Assembly: GCA_913056235.1 (NCBI GenBank)
Contig: CAJXMW010000002.1
Location: 1-64,000 of the forward strand
Source: an uncultured Fodinibius sp.
Lineage (GTDB): Bacteria; Bacteroidota; Rhodothermia; Balneolales; Balneolaceae
DNA: 64,000 nucleotides
Direction of reading: 5' to 3'
Positions 456 through 39,063 of the stretch are shown here, piece by piece (positions within the stretch are counted from its first letter, which is position 1; each line of letters opens with the position of its first letter). The notes beneath the pieces are model-generated. The model did not search any database, was not told the origin of the DNA, and saw nothing but the letters and a program-made list of their open reading frames with translations. Both the position numbers and the translations under genes were made by a program.

Positions 456-1973
456 ATGGATTTTTCTGAATTTATAAATCGCTACAAAAATAAGCTTCAC
501 GAGCTATTCAATGTCGAAGATGACATTGATGAAATTAGCGTGAATCGTGGTTTGCCCGATGAAATCTTTAAAGAGGTTATGAGTTGCAAGCCGCTTAGCG
601 TTTTTATCCCTGAGGAATACGGGGGACGTGGAGCTGAAACGCATGAAGCATTGGCCATGCTAGAGGCAAGCTCGTACGAGTCGCTTCCACTCTCTTTGAT
701 GATGGGAATTAATGGGGCACTCTTCCTGCAACCGGTGGTTAATTACGGTTCGGAAGAAGTTAAACAACCCATTTTTGACCGCTTCTTACATGATAATAAC
801 ATGGGCGGGCTTATGATTACCGAACCGGATTTTGGTTCTGATGCCCTTCATATGGAAACTTCTTTCAGAAAAGTAAAAAGTAATGAAGGGACAGCTTATC
901 AAGTGTCGGGTACTAAACATTGGGCAGGCCTTACTGGGGCCGCTGATTTTTGGTTGATTACGGCTCGCAAGGCAAATGGAGGAGGGAATCTCGGACGCGA
1001 TATTGGGTTCTTTATCCACGACAGCCGCAGAGGTGGTATTGAAGTGGAGGAATATTACAAAAACCTGGGGCTCTACATGTTGCCTTATGGTCGCAATAAA
1101 ATTGATATTACCGTTCCTGAAGAATATAAGCTACAGCCCAAAACGATCGGAATTAAGATGATGACGGATATACTTCACCGAAGCCGATTACAATTTCCTG
1201 GTATGGGTATTGGTTTTTTGAAACGTATGATGGTGGAAGGTATTAATCACTGCAAGGAAAGATATGTGGGCGGACAAAGCCTGTTCAACTATGATCAGGT
1301 TAAAAAGCGTTTGAATAGACTGCAATCCTCGTTTACGATTTGTTCTGCGATGTGTGCGTTTACCAGCACCAATGTTCCTATTGGTAAGGATGCCTCAGAT
1401 ATGAGTATAGCAGCGAATACGATAAAGACGTATACCACTGATTTGATGCAACAGGCAGCACAATCGTTGTTGCAGCTAACTGGAGCTAAAGGATATCGGT
1501 TGGATCACATTGCAGGACGGGCTCTTGTGGATAGCCGACCGTTCCAAATTTTTGAAGGTTCCAACGATATTCTCTATCAACAGATTTCAGAAGCGGTGCT
1601 TAAAAATATGCGAAAGCTGAAGCTAAAAAATCTGCATACCTTCCTCAGTGATTTTCGACTGACAAAACGGGCAGCCGATTATTTTAGCGACCTTTTGGAT
1701 TTCAAGATCAGTAACTCATTAGCGCAGGATCGAATGGTCGAACTGGGCAGAATTCTGAGCCGCGTTATTTCTCTTGAATTCACACTTCGATTAAGCGACA
1801 AAGGGTTCAATCAAAAGCTGATTGATAATGCCATAAAGACGCTTCGGACGGATGTGAGACGTATGGTTTCGACTTTCGTTAATGACAAACAACGAGATGT
1901 TGTTGAAGATTATGAAGAGTCAAGTTCGTGGTTAGAATCTATTCTCCCGCAAACACAAACCGTGCATACCTAA
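456..1973 (+). CDS. Acyl-CoA dehydrogenase family protein
   Basis: 505 aa FAD-dependent oxidase of acyl-CoA thioesters. The middle domain shows the family pattern TEPDFGSDALHMET near residue 120 and GTKHWAG near 152. The C-terminal helical domain ends its core with IFEGSNDILY, whose Glu (about 366) is in the place of the catalytic base of short/medium-chain dehydrogenases. About 120 residues follow that motif, making it longer than the usual 380-390 aa. The substrate cannot be told. It is followed after 30 bases by the sirtuin gene on the same strand, possibly co-transcribed. The role is probably beta-oxidation or branched-chain acyl-CoA oxidation, in keeping with the rest of the window. Confidence 0.88.
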   Translation: MDFSEFINRYKNKLHELFNVEDDIDEISVNRGLPDEIFKEVMSCKPLSVFIPEEYGGRGAETHEALAMLEASSYESLPLSLMMGINGALFLQPVVNYGSEEVKQPIFDRFLHDNNMGGLMITEPDFGSDALHMETSFRKVKSNEGTAYQVSGTKHWAGLTGAADFWLITARKANGGGNLGRDIGFFIHDSRRGGIEVEEYYKNLGLYMLPYGRNKIDITVPEEYKLQPKTIGIKMMTDILHRSRLQFPGMGIGFLKRMMVEGINHCKERYVGGQSLFNYDQVKKRLNRLQSSFTICSAMCAFTSTNVPIGKDASDMSIAANTIKTYTTDLMQQAAQSLLQLTGAKGYRLDHIAGRALVDSRPFQIFEGSNDILYQQISEAVLKNMRKLKLKNLHTFLSDFRLTKRAADYFSDLLDFKISNSLAQDRMVELGRILSRVISLEFTLRLSDKGFNQKLIDNAIKTLRTDVRRMVSTFVNDKQRDVVEDYEESSSWLESILPQTQTVHT

Positions 1974-2003
1974 CAATAGTTGCCAAGCAGAACGGTCAAG
2001 ATC

Positions 2004-2690
2004 ATGAAAAAAATTGTTGTTTTGACCGGCGCCGGCATGAGTGCCGATAGTGGACTTAAGACCTTCCGTGATTCTGACGGTTTATGGGAGGGGCATGATG
2101 TTACTGAAGTGGCTACACCCCGCGCCTGGGAACGAGATAAAGAGCTTGTTCTCGAATTTTATAATGAACGCCGCCAGCAGGCACATACTGTAGATCCCAA
2201 TGAGGGACATAAAGCGCTGGCTCGTCTTGAGCAACAATATGACGTGACGATTATCACCCAGAATGTTGACTCTTTGCACGAACGAGCGGGCTCAACTGAT
2301 GTACTTCATCTGCACGGGCAGTTATCCAAAGTGCGTAGCGAAGATGATCCCTCGTTGATTTATGATATTGGGGGAGATACGATTGAGCTTGGTGATACGG
2401 CAGAAGATGGAGCCCAACTCAGGCCACATGTCGTCTGGTTTGGAGAACCGGTACCCAATATGAAAAAAGCTGCTGATATTGTTCCTGAAGCTGATATTTT
2501 GATTGTTATAGGCACATCACTGGTAGTATATCCGGCTGCTGGTTTAGTTGATTTGGCGACTGCTGGCATCTCCAAATATATTATCGATCCCTCGACACCC
2601 GAGCTTCGAAGCTTTTCGGGTTGGGAACACATTGAGCAGCGAGCAGCAAAAGGTACACCAGAGTTAGTTGATAATTTACTACAGAATTAG
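2004..2690 (+). CDS. cobB: Sir2-family NAD-dependent protein deacylase lacking zinc cysteines
   Basis: 228 aa sirtuin that removes acyl groups from protein lysines using NAD. Visible motifs are GAGMSADSG (residues 8-16), TQNVD, HLHG with catalytic His104, and GTSLVVYP. Tyr53-x-x-Arg56 (YNER) matches the pair that recognises negatively charged acyl groups in SIRT5/CobB class III enzymes, so desuccinylase or deglutarylase activity is inferred. The region after HLHG that normally carries four zinc-binding Cys has none. ATG at 2004 is chosen because MKKIVVLTGAGMS begins the Rossmann fold directly; an upstream TTG at 1980 would add eight unrelated residues. It lies close behind an acyl-CoA dehydrogenase, which suits acyl-lysine regulation, though this is only context. 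Confidence 0.9.
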   Translation: MKKIVVLTGAGMSADSGLKTFRDSDGLWEGHDVTEVATPRAWERDKELVLEFYNERRQQAHTVDPNEGHKALARLEQQYDVTIITQNVDSLHERAGSTDVLHLHGQLSKVRSEDDPSLIYDIGGDTIELGDTAEDGAQLRPHVVWFGEPVPNMKKAADIVPEADILIVIGTSLVVYPAAGLVDLATAGISKYIIDPSTPELRSFSGWEHIEQRAAKGTPELVDNLLQN

Positions 2691-2720
2691 AAGTCTGAAT
2701 TTCCGATTACAGTAAAATAT

Positions 2721-3677
2721 ATGTCTGATTACAAAGCAAGCGAAGAAGAAAAAGAAGTTTTAGAAAAGTATTTATTGCAATTTCTAAATCTTGAAAAACG
2801 ATTTCCGTTGTTGCCAGGTATCGAAAATCAGGAAGCAATGGCCGGTTTGATGGGGCTTGAGCCCGAAGAGTTACAGAAACTCCGTGATCGTTTTGCCTCT
2901 AATGCCAAAGAAGCGGCTATTGAACTTCTGGAGGATCCCGACGTTGCTGATTGGATTGAAGAATTACCTTTTGAACCCGGTGATACCATTGTGGCACTTG
3001 GTGACTCCATCACGGATGATCTGCAAGGGTGGTTCAATATTTTCCAGCATGTGCTCGAGATCGGGCTGGAAGATGGCGACTTTACGTTCGTTAATAGCGG
3101 AGTATCCTACAATACCTCAACCGATGCGCTCAAGAGATTAAACAGAGATGTGCTGGATCATGATCCCGACTGGGTGATCGTGGCACTGGGAACATTTGAT
3201 GCACAGCGCTTGCACGTGGCACCCAATCGCACACTGGTGTCGCTGGCCGATTACTGGGAGAATCTCAATACCATTGAAGAGGCGGTTGGTGAAGTAACAG
3301 ATAATCCCCTTATTTGGATGACACCACCTCCAGTGATTACCGAAATGCAACAGCAAATTCGCCTGTTCCATTTTGATCTTTTTGAAGAAGACCTCAGTCA
3401 GTACAGAGAAATACTCACCGGAAAAAAGGGATATATTGTCGATCCCCTTGGAGAAAGAATGATGGATCAGGATGACAGCGTGGAGGACCAAGAAGAGGGA
3501 CCCCCGGGTCCGGCTGCATGGAATTATCTCAGTGATGGACTGCATCCTTCACTTTCAGGACATACGAATACAGTTAAAGAGCTGATCCGATTCCTCGCTC
3601 TGGCCAAAGAGCCTGAAGAAGGAGCTAGCTTTGAAACACCTGATGATTATGAAGGCTTTGAGGACGAGGAAGACTAA
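2721..3677 (+). CDS. SGNH/GDSL-family hydrolase, cytoplasmic, acidic
   Basis: 318 aa. The esterase domain begins near residue 87 with VALGDSIT, giving nucleophile Ser96. Block V is DGLHPSLSGH, with Asp272 and His275 completing the triad. The Asn/Gly blocks are less clear; VNSGVSYN and VALGTFD are the likely blocks II and III. There is no signal peptide, so it acts inside the cell. An N-terminal helical stretch of about 85 residues and an Asp/Glu-rich tail flank the domain. The substrate is unknown: esterase, lipase or acetyl-xylan/rhamnogalacturonan esterase activities are all found in this fold. Its 3' end overlaps the convergent gene at 3674 by four bases. Confidence 0.8.
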   Translation: MSDYKASEEEKEVLEKYLLQFLNLEKRFPLLPGIENQEAMAGLMGLEPEELQKLRDRFASNAKEAAIELLEDPDVADWIEELPFEPGDTIVALGDSITDDLQGWFNIFQHVLEIGLEDGDFTFVNSGVSYNTSTDALKRLNRDVLDHDPDWVIVALGTFDAQRLHVAPNRTLVSLADYWENLNTIEEAVGEVTDNPLIWMTPPPVITEMQQQIRLFHFDLFEEDLSQYREILTGKKGYIVDPLGERMMDQDDSVEDQEEGPPGPAAWNYLSDGLHPSLSGHTNTVKELIRFLALAKEPEEGASFETPDDYEGFEDEED

Positions 3678-17870: not shown

Positions 17871-17911
17871 TAATTCAGTTTTGACATTTAAAATTTAATA
17901 ATAGTAGCTCT

Positions 17912-17968
17912 AAGCCGTCAGCTTTCAGCAAAATTATTCTGACTGCTGATCGCTGATAACTTATGGCT
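17912..17968. repeat. Imperfect intergenic hairpin, TCAGC family, between paaZ and the last hydratase
   Basis: The left arm TAAGCCGTCAGCTTTCAGC is matched on the other strand by the right arm (GCTGATCGCTGATAACTTA...). The shared pattern is TAAG-n3-TCAGC-n2-TCAGC. It fills most of the spacer upstream of the hydratase gene and stops just before the paaZ stop codon. A hairpin with the same word occurs at 29108-29191. Confidence 0.55.
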
Positions 17969-20801: not shown

Positions 20802-22007
20802 TTATGCTTTTTCTAAAACAACGGCCATACCTTGTCCAACACCCACGCAAAGCGTGCAGAGGGCATACTTCTGATCTTGCTCGTGCAGCTCAATTGAGGC
20901 TGTTTGTAGCAGCCGGGCTCCAGACATTCCCAGCGGGTGACCGAGGGCAATTGCTCCGCCGTTGGGATTTACGCGTGTATCGTCATCATCAATGCCAAGC
21001 TCTCGAAGCACAGCCAGACTTTGGCCGGCAAAAGCTTCATTTAGCTCGATAATACCCATGTCATCCAGCGAGAGATCAGTACGATCTAATACTTTTTGGG
21101 TAGCGCCCACAGGGCCCATGCCCATAATGCGCGGTTCAACACCGACTACGGCCGAAGCCACAATGCGTGCCATCGGTTCCAGTTCGAAATCGCTAATGGC
21201 CGAATCGCCTGCTACCAGCATAGCGCACGAACCGTCATTAATTCCGCTGGCATTCCCCGGCGTTACAGATCCGCCATCGCGAAAGACAGCCGGCAGTTTA
21301 CTCAGTACTTCAACCGTAGTACCGGGACGAATAAACTCATCCTTTTCAAAAATTTTGGGATCGCTTTTTCGCTGTGGGATTTCCACCGGCATGATTTCTT
21401 TAGACAGTCGTCCGTTTTCGGTTGCGCGAGCCGCTTTCTGTTGTGACCAAGCTGCAAATTTATCCTGATCTTCGCGATTTACATCAAACTGTTCAACAAT
21501 ATTTTCGGCGGTTTCGCCCATGGCTTCGCTGCCGTACTGCTTATCCATCTTGGGATTTACGAAGCGCCACCCGAAAGTTGTATCATGCATCTCGGTTGTA
21601 CCGGAATATGGTGCAGAGCCTTTGCCCATCACCATTGGTCCGCGGGTCATGTGTTCCATTCCGCCGGTCACAAACAAATCACCTTCACCAACTTTAATGG
21701 ATTTATAAGCCATGACTGTACTGCTCATCCCGGATGCACAGAGCCGGTTAACCGTTTCTCCGGGCACTGAGACTGGGAGTCCGGCCAGCAAAGCGGCCAT
21801 ACGGGCAACGTTGCGATTATCTTCGCCGGCCTGGTTGGCACAGCCGAAGATCACATCCTCAATCCGTTCAGGATCGATATTCGAATTACGATTCATTAGT
21901 TCTTCTATAGTCATAGCTGCCAAATCATCGGCACGGATGGGAGAAAGGGCTCCGCGATATTTGCCAATAGGCGTTCGAATAGCATCAACAATATAAGCTT
22001 CAGACAT
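20802..22007 (-). CDS. paaJ: PaaJ: 3-oxoadipyl-CoA / 3-oxo-5,6-dehydrosuberyl-CoA thiolase
   Basis: 401 aa thiolase. The acyl-accepting Cys90 is in NRLCASGM, the catalytic His in NPNGGAIALGHPLGMSGAR, and the second Cys in CTLCVGVGQG. Opening residues MSEAYIVDAIRTPIGKYRGALS are those of the PaaJ/PcaF group. It splits 3-oxo intermediates twice in the phenylacetate pathway, yielding acetyl-CoA and finally succinyl-CoA. It lies between paaI and paaY in the operon. Confidence 0.93.
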   Translation of the reverse strand: MSEAYIVDAIRTPIGKYRGALSPIRADDLAAMTIEELMNRNSNIDPERIEDVIFGCANQAGEDNRNVARMAALLAGLPVSVPGETVNRLCASGMSSTVMAYKSIKVGEGDLFVTGGMEHMTRGPMVMGKGSAPYSGTTEMHDTTFGWRFVNPKMDKQYGSEAMGETAENIVEQFDVNREDQDKFAAWSQQKAARATENGRLSKEIMPVEIPQRKSDPKIFEKDEFIRPGTTVEVLSKLPAVFRDGGSVTPGNASGINDGSCAMLVAGDSAISDFELEPMARIVASAVVGVEPRIMGMGPVGATQKVLDRTDLSLDDMGIIELNEAFAGQSLAVLRELGIDDDDTRVNPNGGAIALGHPLGMSGARLLQTASIELHEQDQKYALCTLCVGVGQGMAVVLEKA

Positions 22008-22012
22008 ATTCT

Positions 22013-22070
22013 AGTATTGAGTTTTGGGTCGTAAGTAGTGAGCTGAAACCATTTTCTGATGACTCAATAC
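22013..22070. repeat. Imperfect intergenic hairpin, GAGTATTGAGT family, paaI-paaJ spacer
   Basis: TAGTATTGAGT on the left is opposed by GACTCAATACTCA on the right, with further GTAAGTAGTGAG words between. The arm runs into the paaI stop codon region. Relatives are at 26743-26809, and as separated arms at 38168-38196 and 38605-38647. Confidence 0.6.
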
Positions 22071-22511
22071 TCACGAATCGTTATTATTTTCGTTAAAATG
22101 CTTTTCTTGTGTTCTATAAACGGTTCCACGGAATAGCGCAACTTTCTTCTCGTCCTGGTTTACCACATTAATATTATAGACGGCAATTCGTCGGCCGAGA
22201 TTAAGTTCTTGGGTGGTGGCAATCAGGTGGTCGCCCGGGGTTACTTTTTTGGTAAACGAGATATTGTTTTCGAGGGCAAGTGCCACTCTTCCGTGACTGT
22301 TGGATGCAAAAGCGAGCGCACTGTCAGCCAGTGAAAAAGCAATTCCGCCGTGGGCCACGTTGAAACCGTTCACCATTTCCGGGCGGACGTGCATTTCCAG
22401 CTTGGCATAACCCGGTTTGATATCGGCTATCTCAATGCCCAGCCACTGACTGAAGGCATCATCAGCCATCATCTTTTCAACAACTTTTACCGCAAGTTTT
22501 TGTTTGTTCAT
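22071..22511 (-). CDS. paaI: PaaI: hydroxyphenylacetyl-CoA-type hotdog thioesterase
   Basis: 146 aa hotdog thioesterase. The helix motif NGFNVAHGGIAFSLAD carries His54 and the catalytic Asp63. It also shows the N-terminal FSQWLGIEI and SFTKKVTPGDHL strands typical of PaaI. It is thought to rescue CoA from dead-end aryl-CoA products. It is placed between paaH and paaJ. Confidence 0.92.
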   Translation of the reverse strand: MNKQKLAVKVVEKMMADDAFSQWLGIEIADIKPGYAKLEMHVRPEMVNGFNVAHGGIAFSLADSALAFASNSHGRVALALENNISFTKKVTPGDHLIATTQELNLGRRIAVYNINVVNQDEKKVALFRGTVYRTQEKHFNENNNDS

Positions 22512-22512
22512 A

Positions 22513-22571
22513 GGTCACAGATTTGCACTGATGCTCACAGATCAATCAGATATACCTGTGCTGATCAGTGG
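22513..22571. repeat. Imperfect intergenic hairpin, CACAGAT family, paaH-paaI spacer
   Basis: GTCACAGATTTGCACTGATG on the left resembles the right arm read on the other strand (GCCACTGATCAGCACAGG). The element fills the whole 60-base gap between the two genes. It shares its word with the hairpin at 20043-20084. Confidence 0.55.
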
Positions 22572-23741
22572 CTAATAGAAAGTTTCATTATTTCGCACTT
22601 TGCGTTTTAGCAGTGGATTGGGCCGGTAGCGGTCTTCGCGATATTCTGTTTGAAGCCTGGAAATCCGATCCAAAACTTCTTGCAGGCCAATATCATCTGC
22701 CCATTTGAGTAGTCCTTTGGGATAGTTGACTCCCTTGGTCATGGCCAGGTCCACATCCTTCACCGTAGCGACGTTCATAAATACGGCATCGGCCGCCTCG
22801 TTGATCAGCATTGCTACAATGCGATTTACAATTTTTTGACCAAGTTCTTCATCTTTGGTTGGCTCGGGATTTTCGGCTTCATCGCCGTACTCATAGAATC
22901 CCTTGCCTGATTTCTTGCCAAGATATCCGGCTTCGACCATCCGCTTCTGCGTGAAGGATGGTTTAAAGCGCGGATCATAGAAAAACTCCTCGAAAACGGT
23001 TTCCGTTACCTTGTAATTTACATCATGACCAATAAAATCCATTAGTTCAAAAGGTCCCATTTTGAATTCGCCAATTTCTTTCATCGCCCAGTCAATGGTG
23101 GGCACGTCGGCAACGCCTTCTTCATACTGACGAATGGCTTCGCTGTAAAAGGGACGAGCAACACGGTTGACGATAAATCCGGGCGTATCTTTTGCCAATA
23201 CCGTAGTTTTGCTCCAATCATCAACTAGATCGCGTGCAGATTCAGTTGTTTCTTCCATAGTGCCGATGCCGGGGACAATTTCTACCAGCGGCATGATGGG
23301 AGCCGGGTTGAAAAAATGGATCCCCAAGAAACGTTTGGGCTTCTTTAGTGCAGACGAAATCGACGCGATGGACAGGGAAGAGGTATTCGTGGCCAAGATG
23401 CAGTCATGGGACACAATACCTTCGACTCGTTGAAACACATCCTGTTTGGTTTCCAGATCTTCAATAACAGCTTCAATCACCAGTCCGCATTCGTCGAAAT
23501 CGGTCAGGTCATCCACAAAATGAATGCGATCCATGATACCGTCTACCTCTTCCTGGCTCATACGATCTTTCTCGACCTGACGCTGAAGGATTTTTCGAAG
23601 GGCGTGCTTAGCACTTCCAAGTTGATCAGGATAGGCATCATACAAATAGACTTGATGTCCAAAAGTAGAGGCTATTTGAGCAATGCCCTGGCCCATGGTT
23701 CCCGCTCCGACAACTCCGACAACAGTATCTTGATCCATCAA
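22572..23741 (-). CDS. paaH: PaaH: 3-hydroxyadipyl-CoA dehydrogenase
   Basis: 389 aa NAD-dependent 3-hydroxyacyl-CoA dehydrogenase. The dinucleotide motif is GAGTMGQGIAQIAS near residue 12, and the substrate domain contains GIHFFNPAPIMPLVEIV and the catalytic-region KDTPGFIVNRVARPF. A second C-terminal dehydrogenase repeat (about 290-389) ends in YREDRYRPNPLLKRKV, typical of PaaH-type enzymes. It oxidises 3-hydroxyadipyl-CoA to 3-oxoadipyl-CoA, the substrate of the thiolase encoded downstream. Confidence 0.92.
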   Translation of the reverse strand: MMDQDTVVGVVGAGTMGQGIAQIASTFGHQVYLYDAYPDQLGSAKHALRKILQRQVEKDRMSQEEVDGIMDRIHFVDDLTDFDECGLVIEAVIEDLETKQDVFQRVEGIVSHDCILATNTSSLSIASISSALKKPKRFLGIHFFNPAPIMPLVEIVPGIGTMEETTESARDLVDDWSKTTVLAKDTPGFIVNRVARPFYSEAIRQYEEGVADVPTIDWAMKEIGEFKMGPFELMDFIGHDVNYKVTETVFEEFFYDPRFKPSFTQKRMVEAGYLGKKSGKGFYEYGDEAENPEPTKDEELGQKIVNRIVAMLINEAADAVFMNVATVKDVDLAMTKGVNYPKGLLKWADDIGLQEVLDRISRLQTEYREDRYRPNPLLKRKVRNNETFY

Positions 23742-23800
23742 TTGTAAACGGTTTCATTAACTTTTATATGCAATCTGAAAATAACGAATTGCTGCCTAAA

Positions 23801-23828
23801 ACCAACTTTCGAGTTGAGTAAAAGTTGA
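23801..23828. repeat. Short inverted repeat in the paaG-paaH spacer
   Basis: CCAACTTTC and AAAGTTG lie about ten bases apart, and a further small hairpin (TCTGG-AAA-CCAGA) follows at 23839-23851. The 130-base spacer holds no reading frame of note. Confidence 0.35.
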
Positions 23829-23871
23829 GAATATGCCGTCTGGAAACCAGATCCATAGGTATGGATAAGAG

Positions 23872-24657
23872 CTATTTTCCTTCAAACTTGGGCTTTCGCT
23901 TTTCCAGGAAAGCCTGCACGCCTTCTTGGTAATCGTGTGTTTGGCCGGCTTCGGTTTGCAGATCCGCTTCCAGTTCGAGATGCTCATCCAGGTTGTTTGA
24001 GAGCGACTGATTGATAGCTCGCTTGTAGAATCCGAAGCCTTTGGTAGGCATGGAGGCCAGTTTTTGACAGATGGGTATCGCTTCTTCCATCAATCGATCT
24101 GCCTCAACAGACTTATAAATTAATCCGATTTCTTCCGCTTTTTCGGGAGAAATCTTCTCATCAAGAAGATACATGGCATTGGCTCGTTGTAGTCCTACAA
24201 GGCGTGGAAGCAAGAAGGTGCCGCCGCTGTCAGGAATCAGTCCAATTTTACTAAAGGATTGTACAAATACGGCTTCGTCCGAGGCAAGTACAATATCACA
24301 GGCAAAAGCAAGGTTTGCTCCGGCACCGGCTGCTGTTCCATTTACCGCGCAGACGACCGGTTTTTCGAGATGGCGTATGGCTTTGATGATGGGATTGTAG
24401 CTTTTACGAACAGTATCTCCCAACTCGTAATCATCGCCTTTATCGACGACTTCCGGCAGATCCTGTCCCGCCGAAAACGCCTTGCCGTTTCCAGTGATCA
24501 GCACGCATCGGACATCCTCATTGGTTTTGGCCTCTGCCAACGCCTGCTGCAACTCTTTGGCCATTGGCTCGATGAAGCTGTTGAGCTTTTTGGGTCGATT
24601 TAGGGATACGGTTAGAATAGCATCAGATAGGGAAGTTTCAACCAGTTTTTCGCTCAT
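23872..24657 (-). CDS. paaG: PaaG: ring 1,2-epoxyphenylacetyl-CoA isomerase
   Basis: 261 aa crotonase-fold enzyme turning 1,2-epoxyphenylacetyl-CoA into oxepin-CoA. It shows NRPKKLNSF, GKAFSAGQDLPEV, NGTAAGAGANLAFACD and SKIGLIPDSGGTFLLPR. The Asp in GLIPD is the residue expected for PaaG in place of the second hydratase Glu. The C-terminus YQEGVQAFLEKRKPKFEGK is the usual family end. It follows the small secreted protein and precedes paaH. Confidence 0.92.
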   Translation of the reverse strand: MSEKLVETSLSDAILTVSLNRPKKLNSFIEPMAKELQQALAEAKTNEDVRCVLITGNGKAFSAGQDLPEVVDKGDDYELGDTVRKSYNPIIKAIRHLEKPVVCAVNGTAAGAGANLAFACDIVLASDEAVFVQSFSKIGLIPDSGGTFLLPRLVGLQRANAMYLLDEKISPEKAEEIGLIYKSVEADRLMEEAIPICQKLASMPTKGFGFYKRAINQSLSNNLDEHLELEADLQTEAGQTHDYQEGVQAFLEKRKPKFEGK

Positions 24658-24668
24658 AGATACACTTA

Positions 24669-25052
24669 TTATGAATCCGAATTATAGCGTTCATATCGAT
24701 TCAAGAATAGTTCATATTCGGTCACATCTGTAGGATATTGGATAGTGGGACCAGGATATTTCCAGCCATTTTCGAGGTTGTACAACGGAATGTCACTTGT
24801 GTTTCCACGGATAAGATCTGCACCAATACCCAGAAATATTTTGGATACTTTACTAAGCTGCAGGGGCTTGCTTCTCTGCCCAGTTTTCTTGCCGGTAACC
24901 ATCAGGTTTTGGAAAGAAGGATTAGTTAGCTCCTGCAAGGTGAGGCTGGTATCGGGCTTTGGATTCACGTCTTCACGAAACTGCGCAAATAGCGGGTGTG
25001 CAGATAAAATGACGAGCAGTGATGTAATAATGAATAGTGGAAGTTGTTTCAT
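24669..25052 (-). CDS. Small secreted hypothetical protein inside the paa operon
   Basis: 127 aa from the ATG at 25052 (131 from an in-frame ATG four codons earlier that overlaps paaD). It starts with a strong Sec signal (KQLPLFIITSLLVILSAHPLFAQ), so the mature chain of about 104 residues is exported. The mature part has LTLQELTNPSFQNLMVTGKKTG and a Tyr/Pro-rich end. I recognise no domain. It lies 2 bases after paaD and 11 bases before paaG, so it is part of the operon. In many paa clusters this slot holds paaE, the oxygenase reductase, but this protein has no flavin, ferredoxin or cysteine motif and is not a reductase. Confidence 0.75.
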   Translation of the reverse strand: MKQLPLFIITSLLVILSAHPLFAQFREDVNPKPDTSLTLQELTNPSFQNLMVTGKKTGQRSKPLQLSKVSKIFLGIGADLIRGNTSDIPLYNLENGWKYPGPTIQYPTDVTEYELFLNRYERYNSDS

Positions 25053-25054
25053 AG

Positions 25055-25567
25055 CTAAATGCATTTAAAGTGTTCAAACGGCTCATCGCAATCGTGGCAA
25101 TAGTACTGCGCTTTGCAGGCGGTGGAGCCAAATTCGCTCTGAAGCTCTGTATTGGTTGAGTCACAATAAGGACAAGGAATGATCTTACTTGAACTCTTCA
25201 AAGAATTCAAGAAGTCATCATCAGTGTCTGTTTTCCCGGGTGGAGCAATGCCGTACTCTTTAAGCTTTTGCTTGGCCTTGTCGGTCATCCAGTCGGTGGT
25301 CCAGGTTTCCGAAAAATCCTTGTTCACTTCAAAATCTTGGATGCCATTAACGCGAAGCACTTTTTCGATCTCGTTTTCAATGGCATTCATAGCCGGGCAT
25401 CCAGAATAAGTAGGGGTGATTTGAACCACAACTTTGTCATTCTCAATGGTGACTTCACGAGCAATCCCCAGCTCTAGAATGGATAGTACCGGGATTTCAG
25501 GATCTTTCACCTCGGAAAGCAGGTTCCAGATCTCGTCTTTGTTGTATTTAACTGGAGTCTTTGGCAT
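25055..25567 (-). CDS. paaD: PaaD: phenylacetyl-CoA epoxidase assembly protein (MIP18/DUF59 family)
   Basis: 170 aa. The N-terminal MIP18 domain has EVKDPEIPVLSILELGI and ITPTYSGCPAM. The C-terminal tail has a zinc-ribbon pattern (CPYC ... CKAQYYCHDCDEPFEHFKC). PaaD helps mature the diiron epoxidase PaaABC. It lies between paaC and the secreted protein gene. Confidence 0.93.
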   Translation of the reverse strand: MPKTPVKYNKDEIWNLLSEVKDPEIPVLSILELGIAREVTIENDKVVVQITPTYSGCPAMNAIENEIEKVLRVNGIQDFEVNKDFSETWTTDWMTDKAKQKLKEYGIAPPGKTDTDDDFLNSLKSSSKIIPCPYCDSTNTELQSEFGSTACKAQYYCHDCDEPFEHFKCI

Positions 25568-25592
25568 AACAATAAATCAACGTTGCTAGTTT

Positions 25593-25625
25593 AGTTGTAG
25601 TACACCTGGGAGGTGTGCTACAACT
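25593..25625. repeat. Strong hairpin in the paaC-paaD spacer
   Basis: AGTTGTAGTACACCT and AGGTGTGCTACAACT pair over 15 bases with a single mismatch around a GGG loop. It lies 26 bases before paaD and ends seven bases from paaC. There is no T run, so it is unlikely to terminate transcription; it may act on message stability. Confidence 0.75.
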
Positions 25626-25631
25626 TATTAT

Positions 25632-26417
25632 TTACTCCCAGTCGGCATCGGGATACGAGCGACGCAGGTGCTGCATCTCGGCAAGTAGATGTCCCAGGTG
25701 TTCGGTGTGCAGCCCGTCACGGCTACCTTCCACCATAAACTGATCAAAGTCGGGAACTTCCAGCGTTGCTTCCTCCAGCGTATCTACGACCAGTTCCTTC
25801 CAGTCGGATTTAAAATTTTCAGAATCAGCAGCAAGCTTTTCACCCTGGAGCAATTCTTCGATTTCATCCTGATGAAATAGTTCACCGACATAAGTCCAGA
25901 TATCGTTAAAAGAATTTTGAATACGTTCATGACTCTCATCGGTGCCGTCGCCCAGGCGGAGCACCCACTCCCGGCTGTGCCTTAGGTGATACTTTACTTC
26001 TTTGAGATGCTTCTGTGCCATTCCAGCAAATTGCTCGTCTTCAACATCAGACAGTTGTTTATACAAAAAGTAGCTGAAGCCTGCGAACAGAAATTGCCGT
26101 GCAATGGTAAACCCGAAATCCCCTTTGGGCAGTTCAGTGATTTTTAGATTCTTGTATTCAACATCGTTGCGAAAATACACCAAGTTGTCGCGGTGACGTC
26201 CTTTATCTTCAACCTCCACGGCGTATTCATAGAGCGAAGCCGCATGTCCGATATAATCCAGGGAAATGTTAGCCAGTGCAATATCTTCCTCCAGGATGGG
26301 CCCGTGTCCACACCATTCAGAGAGGCGATGGCCCAAGATTAGGCGGTCATCTGCCAGTCGGACAAGGTATTCAAAAAGGGCGTCCTGTTTTGTTAATGTC
26401 GTTGTTTCTGTACTCAT
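25632..26417 (-). CDS. paaC: PaaC: structural subunit of phenylacetyl-CoA 1,2-epoxidase
   Basis: 261 aa ferritin-like helical protein. It shows LSEWCGHGPILEEDIALANISLDYIGHA near the N-terminus and YHLRHSREWVLRLGDGTDESHERIQ, both family landmarks. The C-terminal HLGHLLAEMQHLRRSYPDADW is the usual end. PaaC pairs with PaaA in the multicomponent epoxidase. The start overlaps the paaB stop by four bases, giving translational coupling. Confidence 0.95.
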   Translation of the reverse strand: MSTETTTLTKQDALFEYLVRLADDRLILGHRLSEWCGHGPILEEDIALANISLDYIGHAASLYEYAVEVEDKGRHRDNLVYFRNDVEYKNLKITELPKGDFGFTIARQFLFAGFSYFLYKQLSDVEDEQFAGMAQKHLKEVKYHLRHSREWVLRLGDGTDESHERIQNSFNDIWTYVGELFHQDEIEELLQGEKLAADSENFKSDWKELVVDTLEEATLEVPDFDQFMVEGSRDGLHTEHLGHLLAEMQHLRRSYPDADWE

Positions 26418-26728
26418 GATCGTCGTTTTGAAGCTCGCGGTACGCTGTAAAACTGTGGATGTCGGTATGGCTTGTCATCAGCCGGATCGAAAAAAGGACC
26501 AGCATCTTCGCCTTTTGAGGCAACTATCTGGTCACTGGGGACCACCCAGATATTTACAGCCTCTTTTCGTCTGGCATAAACATCGCGTGCATTTTCCAGT
26601 GCCATTTCGGCATCGGGAGCATGCAGGCTACCAGCGTGTTCATGAGGTTTGCCGTCCCTGGGTTGTGTAAAGACCTCCCAGAGCGGCCATTGTATATCTT
26701 TTGATTCCGTATCGTTCTTTTCGCTCAT
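26414..26728 (-). CDS. paaB: PaaB: phenylacetyl-CoA epoxidase subunit
   Basis: 104 aa from the ATG at 26728. The open frame runs 19 codons further upstream through repeat DNA (encoding MRYPSRSRLSTHDPN...), which is rejected as start. The core WPLWEVFTQPRDGKPHEHAGSLHAPDAEMALENARDVY is diagnostic of PaaB. It is needed for the PaaABCE complex. It overlaps paaC by four bases. Confidence 0.94.
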   Translation of the reverse strand: MSEKNDTESKDIQWPLWEVFTQPRDGKPHEHAGSLHAPDAEMALENARDVYARRKEAVNIWVVPSDQIVASKGEDAGPFFDPADDKPYRHPQFYSVPRASKRRS

Positions 26729-26742
26729 ATTCTCTTTCAGAT

Positions 26743-26809
26743 TTGGGTCATGAGTACTGAGTCTTGAGCGGGAGGGATATCTCACGACTTATGACTCACT
26801 ACTCACAAC
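26743..26809. repeat. Imperfect intergenic hairpin, GAGTACTGAGT family, paaA-paaB spacer
   Basis: TTGGGTCATGAGTACTGAGT on the left matches the right arm on the opposite strand (TTGTGAGTAGTGAGTCATAAG). It fills the 83-base spacer almost completely. It is the same family as the hairpin at 22013. Confidence 0.6.
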
Positions 26810-26811
26810 TA

Positions 26812-27756
26812 TTACGATGCTTTTTCTTTTGCTAATCGTTTTTTGCGGGCATATTCTTCGGCGGCTTCGCGTACCCACTTTCCATTTTCATGGGCCTCTC
26901 GACGGGATTTCATACGTTCTTTATTCATCGGTCCATTGCCTTTGACCACATTCCAGAATTCATCCCAGTCGATTTCGCCAAATTCCCAGTGACCGGTTTC
27001 TTCGTTGTATTCGAGGTCTTCGTCTGGGATTTCAAGGCCAACTTCGTGAGCTTCAGAGACATGGCGATCCACAAAACTTTGACGCAGCTCGTCATTCGTC
27101 TTTGATTTTACGCCCCATTTGATGAGTTCGGCACTATTGGGAGAATCATCATCATGCGGACCAAACATCATCAGCGTGGGCCACCACCAACGGTCGACGG
27201 CATCCTGAATCATCTCTTGTTGCTCGGGAGTGCCGTCCGCCATCGTAGCGACCATCTCATAGCCCTGCTTCTTGTGAAAACTTTCTTCCTTGCAGATCCG
27301 CACCATGGCGCGCGAATAGGGGCCATACGAGCTCCGTGCCAACATCGTTTGGTTGATGATGGCAGCGCCATCGACCAGCCAGCCAATCACGGCCACATCA
27401 GCCCAAGAAAGCGTAGGGTAGTTGAAAATACTTGAGTACTTGGCTTTGCCTTCCAGCAGTTGGTCAATAACTTCTTGGCGGCTGGCACCCAATGTTTCAG
27501 TAGCACTATATAGATAGAGACCGTGTCCTGCTTCGTCCTGGACTTTCGAAAGCAAAATCATTTTGCGGCGTAACGAGGGCGCGCGTGTGATCCAGTTCCC
27601 TTCCGGCAGCATGCCAACAACCTCGGAGTGAGCATGCTGTGACATCATGCGGATCAGCTGTTTACGATAGCGCTCCGGCATCCAATCTTTAGGCTCGATA
27701 GTTTCACCGTTATCGATGCGTTCCTGAAACTTTTCTTTTTTTGATTCCTCATCCAT
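26812..27756 (-). CDS. paaA: PaaA: catalytic diiron subunit of phenylacetyl-CoA 1,2-epoxidase
   Basis: 314 aa. Ferritin-like helices carry Glu45 (HAHSEVVG), the pair Glu75-x2-His78 (DEAGHG) and the pair Glu158-x2-His161 (EESFHKKQG), the expected diiron ligands. The N-terminus ([22 protein letters not shown]) is the family signature. It inserts one oxygen atom into the aromatic ring of phenylacetyl-CoA. It is the first gene of the operon. A spacer of 202 bases separates it from the divergent hppD, so the operon promoter must lie there. Confidence 0.95.
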
Positions 27757-29107: not shown

Positions 29108-29191
29108 AAAAGGCAGCTTTCAGCGGTCAGCCTTCAGCTTTCAGAAAAGCAATATTTTTACTGATAGCTGAATGCTGAAAGCTTTGACTTT
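29108..29191. repeat. Imperfect hairpin, AGCTTTCAGC family, hppD-hmgA spacer
   Basis: The left arm GGCAGCTTTCAGCGGTCAGC and its continuation CTTCAGCTTTCAG are mirrored by CTGATAGCTGAATGCTGAAAGC on the right. It is the clearest member of the family also seen at 17912. It occupies over half of the 150-base spacer. Confidence 0.65.
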
Positions 29192-37451: not shown

Positions 37452-38171
37452 ATGAGTACCTCGTCGCTCAATATTGATTTCTTTACGAATGTTGAATCCG
37501 ATTTTGAAATCTGCCAGTACAAGGTACTTGCGGGATTAAAATCCATTTCTGAGGACTTCAAAAACAATAAGATATATCCTCATTTGAGTAGTTTAATCGA
37601 GCTTCACCGATCGTTGAGCGATATCCTAGGTAGTCTGCAAACCTTGCGTAGTGAATTTCCCAAGCGTATCAAAAAGATCGATTTTGTAAACGAGCGCATT
37701 GAGCACGAAGTGATTTTTACGGCCGGGGCCGATCTTGCCAAAGTAGAGGATTTGATTGAGTGGGCGCTGCCGTTAATACAAGCTAAAATCGAAGAGGGAA
37801 AAGCCATCTTCGAGTTCGTGGATGATGAGTTGAGAGTGGAAGAAGTAGGCATTATTCCCGGCTATACCGATGAAGGATATTTTTTTGTGCCGGATAATGA
37901 AGAGTCTAAACTGCTTCTTTTCCAGTACGAAGTGACCGTTTTTGAGAGTGCCGATGACAAGTATCGAGCGCTAAAAACAGCATTTTTGAAGGCCCTTGAG
38001 CAGGGAATGGCACAATTATCGCCGAACTCCATAAAGCTTGATCTGATCAACGAAAACAAGAAGCTGCCCAATCCGGCGACTTATGCCTTTAATACGGATT
38101 TATATTTCCCATTTCGGGAGACGATTTTTCCGGTAACGAAACGAAAATTACTCCGGCAGTTAGGGACTTAG
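37452..38171 (+). CDS. Hypothetical cytoplasmic protein
   Basis: 239 aa with no signal peptide or membrane segment and no cysteine motif beyond a single CQ near residue 21. The N-terminal half is helical and polar (ELHRSLSDILGSLQTLRSEFPKR), with VEDLIEWALPLIQAKIEEG in the middle. The second half is probably alpha/beta (GIIPGYTDEGYFFVPDN, LLLFQYEVTVFE). I do not recognise a family. The ribosome site (GGAGG) is eight bases before the ATG. Composition matches its neighbours, so it is a normal resident gene. Confidence 0.7.
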   Translation: MSTSSLNIDFFTNVESDFEICQYKVLAGLKSISEDFKNNKIYPHLSSLIELHRSLSDILGSLQTLRSEFPKRIKKIDFVNERIEHEVIFTAGADLAKVEDLIEWALPLIQAKIEEGKAIFEFVDDELRVEEVGIIPGYTDEGYFFVPDNEESKLLLFQYEVTVFESADDKYRALKTAFLKALEQGMAQLSPNSIKLDLINENKKLPNPATYAFNTDLYFPFRETIFPVTKRKLLRQLGT

Positions 38172-38196
38172 TCTTGAGTAATGAGTATTGAGTAAA
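38168..38196. repeat. Left arm of a split GAGTATTGAGT-family inverted repeat
   Basis: AGTCTTGAGTAATGAGTATTGAGT follows the stop of the preceding gene in the order read. Its opposite arm lies 410 bases downstream (38605-38647), beyond a dead four-helix-bundle gene. Compact hairpins of the same family are at 22013 and 26743. Confidence 0.55.
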
Positions 38197-38256
38197 TTTG
38201 TAAAGGGTTCACAGGGAATCGGTCTTGCTATTAAACTGTTAGCTAGGCCGATTATC

Positions 38257-38604
38257 ATGCATAGACACAAAAAGCTTAATATTTGAAAACGTTCTCTAAA
38301 ACTAGCAACCAGAATCTACAAGGTTACCTCAAGCTATCCAGAAGAAGAGAAATATGGATTGGTTTCTCAGTTGCGAAGATGTGTGGTATCAATAGGGTCT
38401 AACATTGCTGAAGGGGCGGAGAGAAATACAAAGAAGGATTTTAAGCGATTTGTGAGTATTTCTTACGGGTCATCCTGTGAATTAGAAACGTAACTAATGA
38501 TAGCCAGTAATTTACAGTTGTTAAGTAAGAAAGAAGGAGACCTCCTTTTCAAAGAGATTGACGAACTGCAGAAAATGATTTTTACGTTTTCTAAAAAATT
38601 GTAA
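38257..38604 (+). pseudogene. Four-helix-bundle protein gene (23S rRNA-IVS/S23 type), two nonsense codons
   Basis: One reading frame of 115 codons runs from ATG to a TAA at 38602. It encodes a recognisable S23/IVS-type four-helix bundle: MHRHKKLNI-stop-KRSLKLATRIYK, VTSSYPEEEKYGLVSQLRR, VVSIGSNIAEGAERNTKKDF, SCELET-stop-LMIASNLQLL. The frame is intact apart from TGA at 38284 (codon 10, where the family has Trp) and TAA at 38491 (codon 79, where it has Gln). Each is one base change from the expected codon (TGG, CAA), so decay is recent. Family members are found in rRNA intervening sequences and as stand-alone genes. Arms of an inverted repeat flank it on both sides. Confidence 0.88.
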
Positions 38605-38647
38605 GTCAAGTATCTCAATACCCAATACTTACTACTTACTATTTACT
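38605..38647. repeat. Right arm of the split GAGTATTGAGT-family inverted repeat
   Basis: The segment contains CTCAATACCCAATACTTACT and TACTTACTATTTACT, which read on the other strand as AGTAAGTATTGGGTATTGAG. This matches the left arm at 38168. It starts directly at the stop codon of the dead four-helix-bundle gene and overlaps the last codons of the thioesterase gene on the minus strand. Confidence 0.55.
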
Positions 38648-39063
38648 ATCGCTAACGTACATCGCGATACACAAACCAGCTTCTCCTGCTGATTAAAAAT
38701 TTTTGTCTCCCACACTTGAATTTCACGGCCTGAGTGCACAGGGCAAGCAACACCTTGGACAGTACCACCTTTTTTGACGGCGCGCATATGATTGGCATTG
38801 ATCTCCACGCCGACTGCCGTTTTCCCGTCATCCTCGATGTTTAGCCACGCGCCAACCGAAGCCAGCGTTTCGGCCAGACTTACCGATGCTCCCCCGTGCA
38901 GCAGCCCAAAAGGCTGCACACTGTTTTCATTGACCGGCATAGTCGCTTTTACTTCATCGCGTTTGAAAGAGGTGAACTTGATTCCGAGTGCATCACCCAT
39001 ATGGTTTTCAGAGATGTCAAGAAACTGTTGAACACGATCTTTTAAATCAGGTTGGATATACAT
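38632..39063 (-). CDS. Hotdog-fold acyl-CoA thioesterase (PaaI/YdiI-like)
   Basis: 143 aa. The catalytic helix is FGLLHGGASVSLAETLAS, with Glu in the place used by YdiI/MenI-type thioesterases. The strands MGDALGIKFTSF and VGVEINANHMRAV are typical. It hydrolyses an acyl- or aryl-CoA; MenI-like action on dihydroxynaphthoyl-CoA is possible, but no men gene is near. It is divergent from the acyl-CoA ligase. Its last codons lie inside the repeat arm at 38605. Confidence 0.85.
   Translation of the reverse strand: MYIQPDLKDRVQQFLDISENHMGDALGIKFTSFKRDEVKATMPVNENSVQPFGLLHGGASVSLAETLASVGAWLNIEDDGKTAVGVEINANHMRAVKKGGTVQGVACPVHSGREIQVWETKIFNQQEKLVCVSRCTLAIVNSK

Follow-up and report, generated by a model that had tools for sequence, protein, structure and literature searches.

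The window analyzed here, a 64,000-nt stretch of a contig from an uncultured Fodinibius sp. (CAJXMW010000002.1, positions 1 to 64,000), contains a broken gene of the S23/IVS four-helix-bundle type that sits between two protein genes. This locus raises the question of what carries such free S23 genes. The initial annotation had suggested that the locus is a small mobile element: complete copies would be built as arm-gene-arm, and the gene-less hairpins found elsewhere in the window would be its deletion or MITE-like derivatives.

A broken S23 gene enclosed by heptad arms

The window copy (38168–38651) consists of degenerate arms of TGAGTNN heptads that enclose the broken gene. Its parts, and the gene-less hairpins of the window, are as follows.

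17880–17957, no strand assigned: gene-less hairpin, partly decayed, with a TCAGCNN-like arm (period-7 array scan)
22010–22076 (ends approximate), no strand assigned: gene-less hairpin with TGAGTNN arms, between paaI-like and thiolase genes; genome G014 has an S23 cassette at the same junction
26743–26811 (ends approximate), no strand assigned: gene-less hairpin with TGAGTNN arms, between paaA- and paaB-like genes; at this junction hairpins of other words are found in other species
29114–29184, no strand assigned: gene-less hairpin with TCAGCNN arms, the word being like that of S23 locus L001 in the same genome
38170–38196, forward strand: 5′ arm of TGAGTNN heptads (AGTCTTGAGTAATGAGTATTGAGTAAA), a period-7 array
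38199–38228, forward strand: degenerate 30-bp promoter-like motif TGTAAGG-N17-TCTTAC, here TGTAAAGG...TCTTGC with the length unchanged (by eye)
38257–38604, forward strand: S23/IVS-type four-helix-bundle gene, broken (PF05635, 123.4 bits, over the cut-off), with one TGA and one TAA in frame
38616–38651, reverse strand: 3′ arm of oppositely oriented heptads (CTCAATACCCAATACTTACTACTTACTATTTACT), a period-7 array overlapping the convergent thioesterase gene at its end

The gene is dead as read because the TGA and the TAA fall within its frame, in agreement with the initial description of a broken four-helix-bundle gene. The compact hairpins without a gene that had been placed near 22013 and 26743 are likewise real. 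Both lie at gene junctions of what we take, from its proteins, to be a phenylacetate degradation (paa)-type gene cluster (20802–27756).

The opposed arms claimed for the window gene are present as period-7 arrays in opposite orientation, but as a pair they align with a score of 22 (14 of 16 bases), which mismatched flanks also reach, and are weak on their own. A repeat finder using 9-base seeds returned 0 inverted pairs at 37900–38900. The 12-base word TGAGTANTGAGT, with at most one mismatch, occurs 6 times in the window, where 0.93 would be expected, and none of 100 shuffles reaches this count; genome-wide it shows no excess, with 120 occurrences against 117 of the reversed pattern, which is itself a related word. 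The significance of the window arms thus comes from the family-wide result and not from the single copy.

Inverted arms are common at S23 loci

To score the arms, the 300-nt 5′ flank was aligned to the reverse-complemented 300-nt 3′ flank, and scores of at least 24 and at least 30 were counted. The genome of the window (G000) and 27 relatives gave 130 PF05635 matches, from which 100 loci were used, with two fragments of one gene merged and 29 weaker matches left out. A phylum-wide Bacteroidota sample contributed 28 loci and a set from named genomes 80 loci, the latter being the best 80 of 586 relatives and over-sampling one subfamily. Full 300-nt flanks were lacking at 2 of the 100, 1 of the 28 and 7 of the 80 loci, respectively.

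Among the 98 Balneolota loci, the same-locus inverted score was at least 24 in 74% and at least 30 in 58%, while mismatched flank pairs (1470 random and 596 same-genome pairs) reached these values in 8–9% and 2%. In the direct orientation the fraction was 16% compared to 74% inverted, and for a control of 657 non-S23 genes of the own genome it was 5.2% at the lower and 0.5% at the higher threshold. The phylum-wide sample gave, among the fetched matches, 21 of 27 loci at 24 or more (mismatched, 7%); at least 45 of its 61 genomes have S23/four-helix-bundle matches, among the matches listed. For the named set, 59 of 73 loci scored at least 24 and 46 at least 30 (mismatched, 13% and 4.7%). Inverted arms at other copies of the family, above the similarity expected by chance, were the point on which the initial annotation had staked its proposal, and such arms were found in all three sets (74% of 98, 21 of 27 and 59 of 73 loci; mismatched pairs, 7–13%). 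In 19–26% of loci across the three sets no arms were apparent, which counts against the mobile-element reading.

Named loci with arms include members of the Candidate Phyla Radiation (Berkelbacteria, Microgenomates and Paceibacterota) as well as Ignavibacteria, Poribacteria, Elusimicrobia and Thiohalocapsa. One locus, L200, is the same place as L047; it was kept in the named-set count and left out of the mismatch and lag counts and of the comparison with cyanobacteria. Ten loci from cyanobacterial plasmids, out of 30 plasmid records with S23, were scored in the same way, seven of them at 29 or more and three at 16–22; at one (L425) the best mismatched score, 62, exceeded its own score of 57.

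The arms of 126 loci show a seven-nucleotide period, with an identity of 0.592 at lag 7 (0.307 when shuffled) and 0.572 at lag 14, and values near background at the other lags from 3 to 15. The 5′ arm of these 126 loci is C-poor (8.9% C).

Arm words follow the protein lineage

The arm words vary among loci within one genome, yet they track protein similarity (Mantel r 0.46; the highest value in 2000 permutations was 0.10). At non-homologous sites, arms were common to 5 of 5 pairs with a protein similarity of at least 0.80, to 62% of 16 pairs at 0.65–0.80, to 13% of 30 pairs at 0.55–0.65, and to 1–3% of the 1997 pairs below 0.55. Between cyanobacteria and the other sets, the word TCAGAAN was shared by 3 of 3 pairs at 0.70 or more, which derive from two Balneolota and two cyanobacterial loci and so are not independent, and 31% of 16 pairs at 0.60–0.70 shared arms; for this comparison the arms of L428 were read manually off its sequence. 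At loci that occupy the same site in different species (e.g., L002 and L086), the arms diverge between species and the left and right arms stay alike. The arms are thus inverted, heptad-periodic and matched within each locus, and their word follows the lineage of the protein. The single hairpin family of the initial annotation is in fact many families with words that differ by locus, although its pairing of arm-gene-arm units with gene-less forms stands.

The same sites in sister genomes

The window site was compared by eye in 14 of the 28 genomes. Relative to the thioesterase gene, S23 is encoded on the opposite strand in G000 and G004, and in G003 and G008 both genes share a strand. In G002 the gene is absent and an arm, the promoter-like motif and an arm remain, and G005 has remnants of arms. 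No clear element was seen by eye at this site in G006, G007, G009, G010, G001 and G013; G014 has a hairpin with another word there, and the neighborhood in G011 is different.

Thirteen genomes were compared at each of two junctions of the paa-type cluster. At the paaA-paaB junction the word is TGAGTNN in G000, GTTANTN-like in G008, G010 and G007, GTTGCGG in G004, AAAGTAN in G013 and TCAGAAN in G014; G009 holds something unclassed and G012 nothing. A different short near-perfect palindrome, of the GTAAGGTCGTATTGCAATACGACCTTAC type, is found downstream of paaA in G002, G003, G005 and G006 (L308, L309, L311 and L312). At the paaI junction, G014 contains an S23 cassette, and TGAGTNN-type hairpins are found in G000, G002, G003, G005 (degenerate), G008 and G009; G013 has another word, G004, G006, G007 and G010 have half an arm pair, and G012 has no clear element. 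Numerous S23 sites are common to different species; movement is therefore slow, a point against the mobile reading.

Full and empty sites in Nostoc plasmids

The initial annotation had proposed a search for empty sites in strains, and such sites were found in Nostoc plasmids, where flanks with ~78–96% similarity enclose either the entire arm-gene-arm unit or nothing of it. In a first gap, an S23 cassette with TCAGAAG/TCAGGAG arms is present in L428, L438 and L439 and is missing together with both arms in L434–L437 and L429, and in L442 an unrelated sequence has inserted. The same backbone has a second gap a few hundred bases from the first; here L429 carries a different cassette, with GGGAAAA-type arms, and the six others printed are empty. 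At the traM site, among the fetched matches, L424 and L430 have a cassette, L433 (pNsp_c) has a gene-less arm pair, and L431, L432 and L441 have nothing. At the nrd site, L420 has a cassette and L440 has none (84.9% identity). Since both arms are missing from empty sites, the arms arrive with the unit. S23 genes are also found between nrdB and nrdA or between cas genes on cyanobacterial plasmids (L420, L421, L425 and L426).

In L439 a 182-bp element that lacks a gene and has TCAGAAN/TCAGGAG arms (585–766) interrupts the S23 gene itself; the other two copies are unsplit. Relatives of this element, itself included, occupy 100 places in 43 plasmid records (as found with a query offset by 4 bases relative to it), and eight copies can be aligned over their full length and have unlike flanks. 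This family, found in Nostocales, ends in TTTGATAA. In Calothrix brevissima (L445), a copy is found between two pieces annotated as parts of a rarA-like gene. Possible target duplications at the cassettes (TTCTA, ATG/TAATG) are 3–5 bp at best and ambiguous; the 182-bp element ends in GATAA, which its target also has.

At related sites, arms and gene are thus present or absent together and are also found flipped and reduced, and insertion is seen for a gene-less element of the same word. The proposal of a small mobile element with arm-gene-arm as its full form gains support from the full and empty sites, the gene-less form in G002 and the insertion of the 182-bp element into an S23 gene.

Gene-less hairpins in the window and in related genomes

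A scan of 864 kb of the own genome revealed 33 period-7 arrays in intergenic DNA; one shuffle gave 3. Many of these look by eye like hairpins with the words of S23 loci (TCAGCNN, as in L001; ACAGTNN, as in L006; and GTTGAAG, as in L082/L083 of G003). Across the 28 genomes, TGAGT triplet arrays gave 10–24 matches in G000, G003, G008, G014 and G027, 1–3 in four genomes and 0 in 19; reversing the pattern gives no valid control for TGAGTNN, since it is identical when read backwards. Some of the matches in G000, G003, G008 and G027 adjoin an S23 locus that has this word; in G014 a related word is found at an S23 gene. TCAGRAN arrays number 18 in G014 (two S23 loci of that word) and 7 in G004 (one such locus). 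G008 and G027 also have 7 each; six of those in G008 form one tandem array, and the three fetched S23 loci of five in G027 include none of that word. In G009 the only match is its own arm. GTTANTN arrays occur in 15 of the 28 genomes, among them G003, G004, G008 and G010, which have S23 loci of that kind. The genome richest in GTTANTN arrays is G016 (67 matches), and such arms are absent from all four S23 loci fetched from its six matches. With G016 and G027, the array counts agree only partly with the resident proteins.

The gene-less hairpin families are real, and their tie to a resident S23 gene is suggestive only. A test of own against foreign cognates in the own genome, with 5 own and 43 genus loci, was negative (p 0.53) and is a weak test. 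The idea that the empty hairpins are deleted or derived copies is borne out to the extent that gene-less forms with the same word exist; they need not all be deletions.

The S23 protein and a shared 30-bp motif

S23 proteins from five relatives match TIGR02436 with 93–128 bits (cut-off 24). The PDB homologues 2gsc and 2rld have five chains per entry, which fits the pentameric state of this family. The protein is under purifying selection, with pN/pS values of 0.05–0.31 in the 30 closest pairs and a median of 0.21 over 62 pairs, and cores are intact in 78 of 100 loci. The own genome has 12 PF05635 loci from 13 matches, L010 and L012 being two pieces of one gene; of the 11 loci besides L013, six are broken or partial. 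L013 itself (1495–1833 and 1767–3191; G000:C5 ~255046–256742) is a diversity-generating retroelement comprising a variable protein, an Avd-type four-helix bundle and a YMDD reverse transcriptase. Two of the five S23 proteins show weak profile similarity, below the cut-off, to the accessory protein Avd (NF033474) of these retroelements; the Avd copy L013 differs from the cassettes in having no heptad arms (score 18) and is not one of them. A single S23 query run against 50,697 phage records returned no match, and carriage by phages was set aside on this result.

The motif TGTAAGG-N17-TCTTAC precedes 11 of 69 S23 loci of the genus Fodinibius, compared to 6 of 20,000 random windows. There are 13–22 copies per genome in nine Fodinibius genomes (reversed control, 0–1) and 0 in four order-level relatives. 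The own genome has 15 sites (e.g., C2:292814, C3:259174, C1:357644 and C6:225), two before S23 genes (L006 and L007) and one before a RAYT-like gene (L351); the remaining 12 comprise six before named genes, five before unnamed frames and one before none. The genes that follow the motif include radC and an integron integrase (467 bits), both over the cut-off, comEA-like and comF-like genes below the cut-off, and recN, which was matched on a 224-residue piece with its start 258 nt away. The sixth of the named genes is taken to be ssb, and in G002 one of the eight sites read presumably precedes recA. The motif also occurs in 4 of the 20 Y1 loci read. We considered whether the GTAAG...CTTAC hairpin might be a conserved leader RNA and rejected this; because its length is almost fixed at 30 bp and it also occurs before radC, recN, ssb and other genes, it is read as a promoter/operator. 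Rfam gave no relevant match and no rRNA in 13 Balneolota loci, including the window copy. From this distribution, the motif likely marks a recombination/competence-type regulon in Fodinibius.

Relation to known elements

In the available part of PMC4990558, the IVS of Coxiella burnetii is described as encoding S23p, with terminal inverted repeats (a 28-bp stem) and ORF decay, and is suggested to be mobile; two or three tandem GACAGAT heptamers, depending on the strain, and a degenerate one lie upstream of the S23p ATG. The same text states that C. burnetii S23p is thought not to be made, which counts against a protein-driven reading. The elements described here share with this 23S rRNA IVS the protein family, complementary ends (family-wide, and weak in the window copy) and heptamers. 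They differ in being intergenic, in having several copies per genome with differing words and in the gene-less hairpins alongside. Rfam, at the gathering score, gave 0 matches in the 19 of 80 named loci checked. The available part of PMC5041132 concerns 16S insertions. We class the elements as an intergenic form of IVS because they have the same protein, inverted ends and tandem heptamers, even though they fail the defining feature of an IVS because they lie outside 23S rRNA.

REPIN/RAYT systems consist of one gene between inverted short repeats, with gene-less hairpins of the same repeat scattered through the genome. The combination of a gene with inverted repeats and dispersed gene-less hairpins is alike in these TnpA-REP systems, which are the subject of PMC3116915 and PMC8266576; in contrast, the protein here is an S23 four-helix bundle rather than a Y1/HuH nuclease, and its arms consist of heptad arrays, not compact palindromes. 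The genomes examined contain, side by side with S23 cassettes, RAYT-like loci that do have compact palindromes. The RAYT-like and IS200-like Y1 genes of Fodinibius and relatives (L350–L369) are associated with palindromes of several kinds per genome. MITEs are gene-less inverted-repeat units that insert, and the 182-bp Nostoc element is like them, with no parent transposase identified.

The STRR sequences of cyanobacteria are seven-base tandem words in intergenic DNA. Heptamer direct repeats have been reported from Beggiatoaceae, cyanobacteria and Bacteroidetes as possible translational signals (MacGregor 2015, PMC4679880, in the available part). Like the arms, these are seven-base tandem intergenic words, and one of them, TAACTGA, is the reverse complement of the arm word TCAGTTA; the same part of PMC4679880 remarks on close relatives with shorter, repeat-free gaps. 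They are described there as direct repeats without a link to S23, and the terms "S23" and "four helix" have 0 occurrences in that part. In the open-licence literature we found no description that links free S23 genes to heptad arms; such work may exist.

Discussion

We conclude that these elements, which look widespread, are small, mobile and IVS-like but located outside rRNA; their mode of movement is inferred. The window copy is a dead member of this mobile-element family. On balance, free S23 genes are probably the cargo of small intergenic mobile elements, with the S23 protein binding the arm word and mobilizing copies together with another recombinase. Each element, of ~0.4–0.8 kb, would comprise a heptad-repeat arm, sometimes a promoter, the S23 gene and the matching arm inverted. 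S23, a small helical bundle with no recognizable nuclease, would bind its cognate arm word, probably as an oligomer and on single-stranded or cruciform arms. It may then recruit a nuclease that it does not itself encode and so help the host or another recombinase to move the unit, by analogy with RAYT proteins and REPIN hairpins, and one S23 protein could mobilize in trans the gene-less copies that bear its word. Movement would probably take place at a single-stranded DNA stage, as suggested by the co-regulation of some copies with recombination, competence-type and RAYT genes.

That the heptad hairpins are instead REP-like, moved by RAYT/IS200-type Y1 transposases with S23 genes as passengers between two arms, we regard as unlikely. 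Y1 proteins are found in 13 of the 28 genomes, including the array-richest (G000, G003, G004, G008, G014, G016 and G027), the 30-bp motif of S23 genes recurs at the Y1 loci noted above, and the 182-bp element family could be moved by another transposase. Yet in the 20 Y1 loci read, out of 47 matches, an inverted repeat scoring at least 24 is present at 13, by eye a compact palindrome in every case, and none of the 20 has heptad arms by eye, so that a RAYT origin of the hairpins was set aside; G002, G007 and G009 have S23 loci and arrays with no Y1 match, and the match of word to S23 lineage is left unexplained. These points weaken the transposase explanation. A quite improbable order of events is that the hairpins came first and S23 genes then entered their loops, as IVSs do in the loops of 23S rRNA helices. 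The position of IVSs within these helices (PMC4990558, available part) would agree with it, as would the paaI junction, where several species have an empty hairpin and G014 an S23 cassette, and the gene-less arm pair at the traM site of pNsp_c. It is opposed by the arm-free empty sites of Nostoc at the two plasmid gaps, the traM site and the nrd site, and the different words found by species at one junction fit arrival with the element better.

We give very little credence to the possibility that selection keeps the arms as stems in the S23 transcript that serve RNA processing or autoregulation (as RNase III sites or S23 binding sites), around an ordinary, non-mobile regulator gene. RNase III cuts IVS stems (PMC4990558, available part), several copies lie within operon-like groups (nrdB/nrdA, cas6/cas4 and tra), and the purifying selection on the protein would be expected of such a gene. 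However, arm mismatches on the sense strand comprise 210 of the G·U type against 265 of the A·C type, with no excess of G·U, and the presence or absence of whole units, the flips and the gene-less copies also speak against it. Sense-RNA pairing was discarded as the selected feature, the departure being in the opposite direction (p 0.013). The lack of G·U bias would suit a neutral origin, in which within-locus arm matching is a by-product of quasi-palindrome template-switch correction and heptad slippage, without protein recognition, and so would the same-site loci (L002 and L086) where arms diverge between species with left and right staying alike. This origin nonetheless leaves the correlation of word and protein at unrelated sites and the gain and loss of whole units unexplained, and we consider it extremely improbable; template-switch correction may help to keep the arms matched.

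Returning to S23-assisted movement, a broader version is possible and is offered only tentatively. The elements may represent a new class of mobile DNA in which a four-helix bundle that is not a nuclease reads a code of seven-base words in inverted arms and mobilizes both its own gene and many gene-less hairpins. The heptad repeats of Bacteroidota, cyanobacteria and others would then be its products and the rRNA IVSs copies that landed in 23S, with some expression tied to a recombination/competence-type regulon in Fodinibius.

The role of S23 has been open since IVSs were described, and mobile cassettes now give it a context. Intergenic heptamer repeats, which had been reported separately and without a cause, become linked to S23 genes. 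The possible protein-to-word code can be tested in vitro, and if S23 recognizes its arm word, the aligned pairs of protein and word would be a training set for a tiny helical protein that reads repeated DNA or RNA.
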